Below are positions 3,452 through 31,282 of a stretch of DNA of 45,153 bases, one piece after another (position 1 is the stretch's first letter; the number at the start of each line of letters is the position of its first letter). The translations under genes and the position numbers were made by a program. The stretch spans positions 1-45,153 of the forward strand of contig JACPHA010000007.1 in NCBI GenBank assembly GCA_016188825.1, read 5' to 3'. This DNA comes from Candidatus Pacearchaeota archaeon (GTDB taxonomy: Archaea > Nanobdellota > Nanobdellia > Pacearchaeales > GW2011-AR1). The notes beneath the pieces are model-generated. The model was not told where the DNA came from. It saw only the letters and a program-made list of their open reading frames with translations, and did not search any database.

Positions 3452-4324
3452 ATGGTAAAAGAAAATAAAAAGAAGTCGGTGCTGATATTTCTCATTGCAT
3501 TCCTCATCTTGGTGTTCCTTGGTTGGGTTGGCTATCAGCAAGGATTTCTTGGCTTTATCTATAATGTTATGATGCCCGAGCGCTTGGGCGCATTTCCTTT
3601 AATTGTTCTAAGCATGATCTTTGGTATCGCTGCTTTCTTTAGTCCATGTGCCCTTACTGTGCTGCCAGGCTATGTTGCTCACTTCTTAACAGGAGGAAAA
3701 CTAAAGAAAATTTCTAGAAAAAAAGTTTTTTGGAAGTCTCTTTATCTAGGAGGAATCGGTGCTCTTGGAATTTTTATTGTCAATATGATTCTTGGTTTAA
3801 TTATTGCATTACTTGGCTCTGCAACTCCTTTTGCAAAAGATCCAAGGCAAGACATTGCTATTATACTTGGGATTAGGATAGTTGCAGGATTTCTAATAGC
3901 GGGCCTGGGAGTTATTATTTTGCTTGGAAAAACACTTCCTGTAACTTGGGTTCATAGATTATTTGCACAGCGAGCTTTTACCAAAAGTATTTTCTTTTAT
4001 GGGGTAATCTATAATGGCGCGGCTATAGGTTGTACGGGTCCAATAATGTTAGGACTTCTGCTTTATGCTTTCGCAGCTACAAGCTTCACAGGCGCTATTA
4101 CGACTTTCTTAGTATTTTCTTTGACAATGAGCGCATTAATGATAATCCTAACGCTTATAGCGGGCTTATTTAAAGATTCCTTAATTCCTTATCTTTTAAC
4201 AGCTTCTGAAACAATAAAGAAGATGGCAGCGATCATAATGATTATTATGGGATTAGCTATTGCTTTGCTAACTTTACAAGGCAATCAGTTATTTGTGAGA
4301 TTATTTTTCCCTCATCTATCTTAA
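3452..4324 (+). CDS. ccdA: CcdA/DsbD-like thiol-electron transporter
   Basis: This is a polytopic membrane protein of about 290 residues. It has one N-terminal signal-anchor helix followed by the CcdA six-helix core. The two conserved cysteines are visible in F-S-P-C-A-L-T-V-L-P-G-Y (about residues 64-75) and A-I-G-C-T-G-P-I-M (about 190). CcdA/DsbD cores carry reducing equivalents from cytoplasmic thioredoxin-like proteins across the membrane to extracytoplasmic partners. I prefer ATG 3452 to the in-frame TTG at 3443. It is the first gene of a rightward cassette and is probably controlled by the divergent HxlR gene. It is one of three CcdA cores in the window. Confidence 0.88.
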   Translation: MVKENKKKSVLIFLIAFLILVFLGWVGYQQGFLGFIYNVMMPERLGAFPLIVLSMIFGIAAFFSPCALTVLPGYVAHFLTGGKLKKISRKKVFWKSLYLGGIGALGIFIVNMILGLIIALLGSATPFAKDPRQDIAIILGIRIVAGFLIAGLGVIILLGKTLPVTWVHRLFAQRAFTKSIFFYGVIYNGAAIGCTGPIMLGLLLYAFAATSFTGAITTFLVFSLTMSALMIILTLIAGLFKDSLIPYLLTASETIKKMAAIIMIIMGLAIALLTLQGNQLFVRLFFPHLS

Positions 4325-28400: not shown

Positions 28401-28608
28401 GGCGACTTACAAGATGAAATCTCGTTTTTGTTCTTTTCTTCTTCTCTAAAGGAGGGGTGACTTATTACAAGATGAAATCTCGTTTTTGTTCTTTTCTTCT
28501 TCTCTAAAGGAGGGGTGACTTATTACAAGATGAAATCTCGTTTTTGTTCTTTTCTTCTTCTCTAAAGGAGGGGTGACTTATTACAAGATGAAGGAGGGGT
28601 GACTTATT
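28401..28608 (+). repeat. 58-bp tandem repeats with a truncated last unit
   Basis: The block GGAGGGGTGACTTATTA recurs at 28451, 28509 and 28567, an exact 58-bp period. A shortened unit follows at 28593 (26 bp later), and a diverged first unit begins near 28401. Each full unit includes CTCTAAAGGAGGGGTGACTT and a pyrimidine-rich half. The copies are nearly identical, so the array is recent. No protein coding is evident, and units touch with no variable spacers, so it is not a CRISPR. Confidence 0.9.
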
Positions 28609-28633
28609 AGGGGAACCTTGGTTCCCATATAAT
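28602..28633 (+). repeat. Copy of the hairpin repeat also inside the tRNA-Lys intron
   Basis: This segment follows the tandem array and carries the hairpin GGGAACC-TT-GGTTCCC then CATATAATA. It matches 31214-31245 with one visible substitution over about 32 bases, and the similarity extends left through the G-rich GGGG-x-GACTTATT block. The second copy lies inside the tRNA-Lys intron (31185-31244). Confidence 0.85.
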
Positions 28634-28750
28634 ATAAATGTTCTTGAAAAAAAGTATCTATTGTTTGCCACTGCTTTAGATAACAAAACAGCAGAAAGAT
28701 TTAAAAAAGATATATTGGCTGTAATATACAGGTTGTAAAATATATTTCAC

Positions 28751-29032
28751 ATGACAGACGAAAAAATTCGCGACAATTTCGACATCTTCTTCAGAAGAAA
28801 GCCTGCAATGATGCTCGTGGCTTTGAAAAGAATCGCTAGAGTAAGATATGGTAGTGTTCTCGCAAAAGAAGTTGACTGCACATACAGCCACGCCGTAAAA
28901 ATCCTCCAGAGTTTGGAAAAATTAGGCTTGGTAGTGTTTGAAAAAAAAGGCAGAATTAAGTTAATCAAACTAACAAAGAAAGGACAAGAAACTGCAGAAA
29001 ACATCGAAAACATTAAGAAGATGGTTTCTTAA
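28751..29032 (+). CDS. Winged-helix (MarR-like) transcription regulator
   Basis: The 93-residue protein has M-M-L-V-A-L-K-R-I-A then helix-turn-helix V-L-A-K-E-V-D-C-T-Y-S-H-A-V-K-I-L-Q-S-L. A wing V-F-E-K-K-G-R-I-K-L-I-K-L-T and T-K-K-G-Q-E-T-A-E-N-I complete the minimal MarR/PadR-like fold of archaeal regulators. The stretch A-T-A-T-A at 28739-28743 precedes the start. It lies just after the tandem repeats and faces the Toprim gene tail to tail. Targets are unknown. Confidence 0.82.
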   Translation: MTDEKIRDNFDIFFRRKPAMMLVALKRIARVRYGSVLAKEVDCTYSHAVKILQSLEKLGLVVFEKKGRIKLIKLTKKGQETAENIENIKKMVS

Positions 29033-30015: not shown

Positions 30016-30061
30016 TTTTCTTGTTATTGATTTTACTTATCTTGGTATTTAATTCTGCCTA

Positions 30062-30190
30062 CTCTCAAAGGAGGCGTAACTTATCGTAGTCAACGACATT
30101 AATTTTTCTTCGTTTTGTCGTTGATTCGTCAGGATTTGCTTAGCTTCTGCAAATCTTGGGCGTACTCAAGAACCTGCGGTTCTTGACATA
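30062..30190 (+). repeat. Structured intergenic element, copy 1 (two hairpins)
   Basis: This 243-bp gene-free stretch (30016-30258) holds a CTCTCAAAGGAGGCGTAACTT block, like the tandem unit at 28.4 kb. Two hairpins follow: GATTTGC/GCAAATC (30133-30139 with 30149-30155) and TCAAGAACC/GGTTCTTGA (30166-30174 with 30178-30186). The same two hairpins in the same order and spacing occur at 35530-35580, with different bases but kept pairing, which suggests an RNA structure under selection. Confidence 0.6.
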
Positions 30191-30600: not shown

Positions 30601-30650
30601 ATGTTGGAATAAGGAGATATATTTTTAAACTTTGCTTATTTGAACTATTT

Positions 30651-30854
30651 ATGGAAACAGTGAGCGTTAAAGCAGAAGACATAAGGAAATTAATGAGAGA
30701 TGTACAAATTATTAAAGAAACTATTCTAGACAAAAAGGAGGGTATAGAAGAAACAGAATTAACAGATTGGGCAAAAAATGAGTTAGAAGAAGCAAGAAAA
30801 AGAAAATCAAAAATATCACATGAAAAGGCGAGAGAAATGCTCCTTGCAAAATGA
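30651..30854 (+). CDS. RelB-like antitoxin
   Basis: I choose ATG 30651, which gives 67 residues; an upstream in-frame start at 30582 would run through the TATA-like TATATTTTTAAA (30618-30629). The peptide M-E-T-V-S-V-K-A-E-D-I-R-K-L-M-R-D-V then a helical acidic/basic tail (E-L-E-E-A-R-K-R-K-S-K-I-S-H-E-K-A-R-E-M) fits an archaeal RelB-type antitoxin. It overlaps the toxin start by ATGA. Confidence 0.82.
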   Translation: METVSVKAEDIRKLMRDVQIIKETILDKKEGIEETELTDWAKNELEEARKRKSKISHEKAREMLLAK

Positions 30855-31102
30855 CTTTCTCGATTGAGTGGGATGAAAAAGTTCTTAATTTTCTGAGGAA
30901 GTTGCCAAAAAATATTTCGGAGAGGATATTTAATAAAATTGAATCAATAAAAGAGAATCCTTTTCATTTTCTGGAACATTACGAAGGGGGATATTATAAG
31001 CTAAGGATTGGAGATTATCGTGCATTAATAGATATTGATTTTGAAAATAAGATTTTGATTGTTCAGGTTTTGGATAAAATAGGTAGAATTTATAAAAGAT
31101 AA
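30851..31102 (+). CDS. RelE-family mRNA interferase toxin
   Basis: The 83-residue protein is a near-textbook archaeal RelE. It has S-I-E-W-D-E-K-V-L-N-F-L-R-K-L-P then R-I-F-N-K-I-E-S-I-K-E-N-P. Y-Y-K-L-R-I-G-D-Y-R-A-L-I-D-I and a basic end D-K-I-G-R-I-Y-K-R follow. RelE cleaves mRNA in the ribosome A site. It follows its antitoxin with a 4-bp overlap. It is the second RelE-fold toxin of the window, clearly different from the larger one at 15160. Confidence 0.92.
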   Translation: MTFSIEWDEKVLNFLRKLPKNISERIFNKIESIKENPFHFLEHYEGGYYKLRIGDYRALIDIDFENKILIVQVLDKIGRIYKR

Positions 31103-31148: not shown

Positions 31149-31282
31149 TGGTCCCGACGGGATTTGAACCCGCGACACCCACGTTTCTCTTCACCCCCTC
31201 TTAAATGGGGGGGACTTATTGGGGGAACCTTGGTTCCCATATAATAAGAGCGTGGTACTCTACCGGACTGAGCTACGGGACC
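31149..31282 (-). tRNA. tRNA-Lys(CUU) with intron
   Basis: Read on this strand, exon 1 (31282-31245) begins GGTCCCGTAGCTC and ends with stem CCACG and loop CTCTTA. Exon 2 (31184-31149) begins A-CGTGG and ends with T-arm GCGGG-TTCAAAT-CCCGT and acceptor CGGGACC plus A73. Joining them gives a normal cloverleaf with anticodon CTT, Lys. The 60-nt intron (31244-31185) sits after base 37, the usual archaeal site. Its AAGAG near the 3' end can pair with CTCTT of the loop, as expected for a bulge-helix-bulge splice site. No CCA is encoded. Confidence 0.9.
31185..31244 (-). other. tRNA-Lys intron carrying a dispersed repeat
   Basis: These 60 nt interrupt tRNA-Lys between positions 37 and 38. The intron contains the hairpin GGGAACC/GGTTCCC and flanking ATATAATAA and G-rich blocks found also at 28602-28633. 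Boundaries could move by a base, because the exon-intron junction bases are A-rich. Confidence 0.8.

Follow-up and report, generated by a model that had tools for sequence, protein, structure and literature searches.

A block of sequence inside the 60-nt intron of an archaeal tRNA-Lys(CTT) gene is probably one copy of a small mobile DNA element, non-autonomous and found in this archaeon's order, a lineage of tiny-genome archaea, that colonises tRNA genes and can become an intron of the bulge-helix-bulge (BHB) type. The gene lies in a stretch of 45,153 nt (the whole of the DNA analysed, here called the window), which is contig C15 of a 1.0-Mb archaeal assembly (G000); the finding is larger than what was initially noted from the window alone. 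A sequence-only reading had proposed a small mobile element tolerated within the intron, or, in reverse, the release of intron sequence into the genome, and the former is supported by dispersed copies, their occurrence in both orientations, target duplications of ~14 bp, and empty orthologous sites.

The tRNA-Lys intron and its sister copies

The features of the window on which the argument rests are as follows.

31149–31282, minus strand: tRNA-Lys(CTT) gene with a canonical 37/38 intron (Rfam RF00005, 53.6 bits; fold with a BHB-like junction)
31185–31244, minus strand: 60-nt tRNA-Lys intron (exon/intron bounds by sequence; fold)
31200–31246, plus strand: element copy in the tRNA-Lys intron, antisense to the tRNA if read from GGGGGGACTTATT to the hairpin (model R1, 59.5 bits, E 3.6e-17)
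31223–31238, no strand: element hairpin GGGAACC-AA-GGTTCCC in the tRNA-Lys intron (position; compensatory changes over 114 distinct copies)
28407–28592, plus strand: tandem array, 58-nt unit × 3.2, of truncated element units (AAAGGAGGGGTGACTTA and another stem), abutting a full copy (TRF; low-scoring R1 match per unit)
28588–28634, plus strand: full intergenic element copy, upstream of a winged-helix gene at 28751–29032 (model R1, 66.9 bits)

The tRNA gene was not called at 31149–31282 by ARAGORN without intron search. Removal of the intron restores the exon loop CTCTTAA, satisfying the criterion for the canonical position (37/38), and the BHB criterion is met by a predicted fold in which the precursor forms a cloverleaf with an anticodon stem, a CUCUU/AAGAG helix and 3-nt bulges; the AAGAG that pairs with exon CTCTT lies at the 3′ end of the intron, while the 5′ part is the element, its hairpin end adjoining the 5′ splice site. 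Splicing is a prediction only, in the absence of RNA data.

Near-identity between the intron block and a second site, first placed at 28602–28633, holds over a slightly longer span (31208–31246 against 28596–28634, 37 of 39 nt identical), with a 25-nt core that is the same in both sites and for which 0 matches are expected in shuffled sequence, ruling out chance similarity. The further similarity that had been claimed to the left proved only weak, the left part of the intron being altered (CCCCC...GGGGGGG); the second block does stand beside tandem repeats, directly after the 28407–28592 array. What the two sites share is the end portion of an element family.

Exactly six full copies of the block were found in G000 by two DNA searches. 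Inspection of the flanks places them in the tRNA-Lys intron, at the array (28596), upstream of a gene read as lysyl-tRNA synthetase (contig C8), within the intron of a tRNA-Met gene (contig C3), and immediately adjoining the first nucleotide of two tRNA-Leu genes (contigs C14 and C20), so that four of the six lie in or touch tRNA genes (chance ~3e-9), with the intron copies antisense relative to the tRNA-Leu leader copies. Two observations would have undone the mobile-element interpretation: confinement of the block to tRNA introns, which fails since the block also occurs outside them, and descent of the intergenic copy from a tRNA, of which neither intergenic copy of G000 retains a remnant (neither the surroundings of 28596 nor C8:27342 match a tRNA; relatives are element-free at the orthologous intergenic site).

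Among relatives, the tRNA-Lys intron varies in presence and size, and the block is missing from those of the genus. The tRNA-Lys(CTT) gene is intronless in the genus relatives G002, G004 and G005, and carries block-free introns of 24–59 nt in G001, G003, G006 and G009. It lies near the orthologue of the winged-helix gene in G002, G004, G006 and G009, making the locus syntenic; no element is present upstream of that orthologue in G002 and G004. The window's tRNA-Lys copy is inferred to be young, arising after divergence of the genus; because tRNA-Lys introns are variable within the genus, the intron could have been created by the element or have existed before it arrived.

Elsewhere in the window, a ParE-like toxin ORF and a small upstream ORF, likely a toxin-antitoxin pair, lie beside the tRNA-Lys gene (30639–31102), and a degenerate element-like CTCAAAGGAGGCGTAACTTATCG is followed by more palindromes (GTCAACGAC..GTCGTTGA, AAGAACCTGCGGTTCTT) at 30060–30190, without a match to model R1.

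Anatomy, distribution and placement of the element family

The element measures roughly 45–115 bases and has one fixed end, a 6–7-bp hairpin (GGGAACC-nn-GGTTCCC) followed by ATAYRA or a subtype variant. A GGAGGGGT motif is conserved as well, and the distal end varies. The hairpin end comes in at least three subtypes (CCCATAYRA, CCCTTTATA and CCCCTCA), and the hairpin is under base-pairing constraint, with 125 double-change cells over 114 distinct copies against 29.8 in shuffles, none of 500 reaching the observed value. An initial DNA search of relatives recovered near-identical copies in other genera and in another family; covariance model R1, built from 16 copies, then matched 125 of 200 genomes within the order, where a single genome can hold up to ~29 copies, and only two genomes outside the order in a phylum-wide sample of 371. 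No known Rfam family scored above its gathering threshold for the element (60 loci gave only tRNAs and one RT-16 RNA; the window's intron region gave the tRNA match only). A virus link was rejected, the element core pattern being missing from IMG/VR contigs, and no report of the family was found in the literature searched, which excludes most subscription journals. By eye, the element resembles the 3′ end of 16S rRNA, an impression only.

Placement is strongly biased towards tRNA genes. Among the 148 distinct copies, tRNA introns hold 24, and another 43 are situated no more than 200 nt from a tRNA, against ~2.7% expected; the excess persists without the seed loci of the model (54 of 128). The denominators are approximate, assuming ~42 tRNA genes per 0.75 Mb. 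Related copies sit in the canonical introns of many tRNA species, the same TYGTATGGGAACC...-type start recurring in those of Lys, Met, Gly, Cys, Asp, Thr, Tyr, Phe, Ser, Pro, Arg, Leu and other ARAGORN calls (isotypes of some intron-bearing genes are unreliable; tRNA-Lys(CTT), for example, is called Ser), and in nearly all of these copies the hairpin end is at the 5′ splice site. The same polarity is seen outside introns, where the hairpin end falls within 6 nt of the tRNA edge in 15 of 42 cases and the other end in one. Among 82 copies not associated with tRNA, 11 have the hairpin end within 15 nt (mostly 1–2 nt) of a same-strand start codon and none the other end, the genes including those for ribosomal protein L11 (rplK) and Spt5 (spt5), as identified by our own reading.

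In the leader of the tRNA-Leu(TAG) gene on G000:C14 (locus L004), a fresh copy stands between two older, compensatorily changed copies and nucleotide 1 of the tRNA, an order suggesting that fresh arrivals insert beside the tRNA. The orthologous leaders in G081 and G067 carry other element subtypes; this variation between genera beside one tRNA-Leu gene suggests repeated replacement or conversion, not single insertions.

The RT-16 RNA (Rfam RF03019) shares one locus with two element copies (L098:2812–2953, in G148:C27), and a copy at G079:C11:3811–3852 stands between two separate reverse-transcriptase domain matches (3458–3805 and 3838–4119), possibly as an insertion into a reverse-transcriptase gene; similarly split matches are found in other genomes.

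Insertion, target duplication and the mode of spread

Mobility of the element is demonstrated as far as comparison of sequences allows. At a tRNA locus shared by two genomes, G163 has the empty site (CCGTGCAGCCTCAT-TACGCGAAG) and G164 the filled one (CCGTGCAGCCTCAT-[insert]-CCGTGCAGCCTCAT-TACGCGAAG); one shared T can be assigned either way, giving an insert of 57 bp with a duplication of 15, or of 58 bp with one of 14. At a tRNA-Thr gene, a 59-bp insert lies between two copies of CTCAGCACAGGCTT in G164 and is missing in G163, the upstream flanks being near-identical and the downstream flanks not alignable. Both duplications are of the tRNA 3′ end (14–15 bp). Over all copies, direct repeats of at least 12 nt from the hairpin end accompany 26, against 0.3 expected, some of these being tandem copies of the element itself; twelve cleanly bounded inserts measure 57–114 bp, with duplications of 12–17 bp (median 14) and without terminal inverted repeats (1–4 of 8 end positions match). 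Within tRNAs the targets are the first 14–15 nt or the last ~14 nt; others are a start-codon region of G153 (AGATGATTATTAAA) and further sequence. Inserts take both orientations, and insertion into a tRNA leaves one complete gene. No duplication is visible at a third 3′-end insertion (G162 compared with G055) or around the window's own copies, nor was any seen around intron copies, that of the window's tRNA-Lys included, and insertion into the anticodon loop is consequently inferred, not caught. All data are from metagenome assemblies.

Other sequences show related arrangements. A different dispersed repeat (GCGAACGNAGTGAGCAA) flanks some copies (L130, L159 and L174), perhaps as nested insertions. 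A second, unrelated hairpin sequence (GGGTTTCTTTTTTAGAAAAAAAGAAACTAC...) occurs in G055 (L239 and L242) within a tRNA-Thr intron and also following a duplicated 5′ fragment of tRNA-Thr, and other element families may live in the same way. Upstream of a tRNA-Arg gene in G015 (L066), an insert GGAGAGATTAAAAACCTCTCC...CTATAAGTCC, different in sequence and alike in architecture, lies between two copies of tRNA nucleotides 1–15 (GGGCTTATAGTTTAA) and holds a complement of its target.

Complements of the target also appear in the distal part of the bounded inserts of the element (CTCAATCGC, CAAGAAAG, TGCTGAG, GCTACCC, TGCACG, TACCCG), exceeding both shuffles and swapped targets (0 of 2000 reach the observed sum in each case). 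Over all non-intron copies the excess is moderate (at least 8 nt in 8, against 1.7), the complement being clear in some insertions (6–9 nt) and absent in others; in intron copies its geometry is that of the BHB helix. A tentative idea, at present doubtful, is that the element carries or acquires a complement of its target and that this pairing takes part in insertion and afterwards serves as the BHB helix, such that insertions into the anticodon loop are born spliceable; if true, the element would represent a novel class of target-pairing mobile element, and archaeal tRNA introns would have a direct origin in its insertion.

On the mobile-element reading, the insertions shown at tRNA genes and elsewhere, with their duplications of ~14 bp, are made by an enzyme presumed to be supplied in trans and as yet unidentified. 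Where it landed in an anticodon loop, the distal complement would supply the central helix of the BHB, an inferred step of which no intermediate has been seen; the splicing endonuclease could then remove the insert, allowing it to survive as an intron, with the second target copy putatively lost or never made. No transposase, integrase or autonomous partner of the element was found, and neither reverse transcriptase nor Y1 transposase tracks element abundance cleanly; incomplete assemblies and extrachromosomal helpers remain possible behind the missing enzyme genes. A composite transposon was considered for two inverted copies 2.3 kb apart in G189:C43 and rejected, as they enclose ordinary genes (by our own reading of the translations, ORFs that are ribosomal-protein-like and SecY-like).

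Release from the intron, the reverse reading, is the less likely of the two, given that the majority of copies lie outside introns and carry target duplications of the DNA type, although an RNA step is not excluded. Its fullest form, in which excised tRNA introns (circles or linears from BHB splicing) insert elsewhere by reverse splicing and reverse transcription, or through an integrase accepting RNA or cDNA, would account for the base-pairing constraint on the hairpin and for a distal complement resembling half a BHB, and reverse-transcriptase genes are present in 21 of 40 genomes tested, the window's own included; it is nonetheless improbable, given both orientations and the ~14-bp duplications, also at protein start codons, and the lack of a reverse transcriptase in element-rich G163, G164, G064 and G145, themselves incomplete assemblies.

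The constraint on the hairpin could also befit an immobile sequence that serves tRNA and translation genes as a functional RNA or a regulatory signal (a leader, trailer or intron signal), as could conservation over an order and a hairpin end abutting tRNA nucleotide 1 or start codons such as those of rplK and spt5. Such a signal would not be expected to take opposite orientations in introns and leaders, to be missing from orthologous genes of close relatives, with empty and filled sites paired, or to show target duplications, tandem arrays and tRNA species that differ from genome to genome, and it is retained only as a very slim prospect. Slimmer still is a miniature casposon mobilised by a Cas1-type casposase: duplications with a median of 14 bp at tRNA 3′ ends are as for casposons (PMC6977970, PMC4046053), but terminal inverted repeats are missing, entry of casposons into D-loops or introns has not been reported, and none of the 20 element-rich genomes tested has Cas1, which was present in just two genomes without the element. 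A mobile DNA element moved in trans remains the preferred reading.

Comparison with known systems

In eukaryotes, introners are mobile elements whose insertions into protein genes become spliceosomal introns; the archaeal element would likewise become an intron removed by host splicing, with the difference that its introns would be BHB introns in tRNA genes, spliced by a protein enzyme. MITEs and other non-autonomous palindromic repeats share its short, non-coding, dispersed character and its target duplications, yet the MITE criterion is not met for want of terminal inverted repeats or an identified autonomous partner, and the strong preference for tRNA boundaries and the distal target complement are further differences. 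Elements derived from IS200/IS605 make no target duplication, a criterion that duplications of 12–17 bp likewise fail to meet. The casposon criterion of a target duplication of about 14–15 bp is met, in keeping with a casposase footprint of 14 bp (PMC6977970), as is a preference for tRNA 3′ ends, whereas the element lacks Cas1, inverted repeats and genes, and uses further target positions.

A single element exists here both within introns and free of them, and its target duplications and empty sites can be seen, so intron gain becomes amenable to study as DNA insertion. The element would offer archaeal tRNA genes a tangible means of acquiring introns, a process that is still an open question, and its insertion also accounts for the fragments of tRNA genes that these genomes carry next to intact ones.

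The closest reports are the transposed introns of Thermoproteales (PMC4090602) and a recombinase-encoding element of Caldiarchaeum (PMC3293823). Thermoproteales tRNA introns that are near-identical across different tRNA genes indicate that introns have moved on a large scale, at canonical BHB positions (Fujishima et al. 2010, summarised in review PMC4090602), a transposition proposed without a mechanism. Related introns in different tRNA genes at canonical BHB positions are common to both systems; unlike in Thermoproteales, the present element has copies outside introns, ~14-bp duplications and empty orthologous sites, and belongs to an unrelated archaeal lineage. In Caldiarchaeum, tRNA-Thr is disrupted by a 1.8-kb recombinase-encoding element and an intron was brought by att-site exchange (PMC3293823), a setting that likewise joins intron gain to a duplicated fragment of a tRNA and to mobile DNA at the tRNA gene; unlike that element, the inserts described here are of 57–114 bp, non-coding, and would themselves form the intron.
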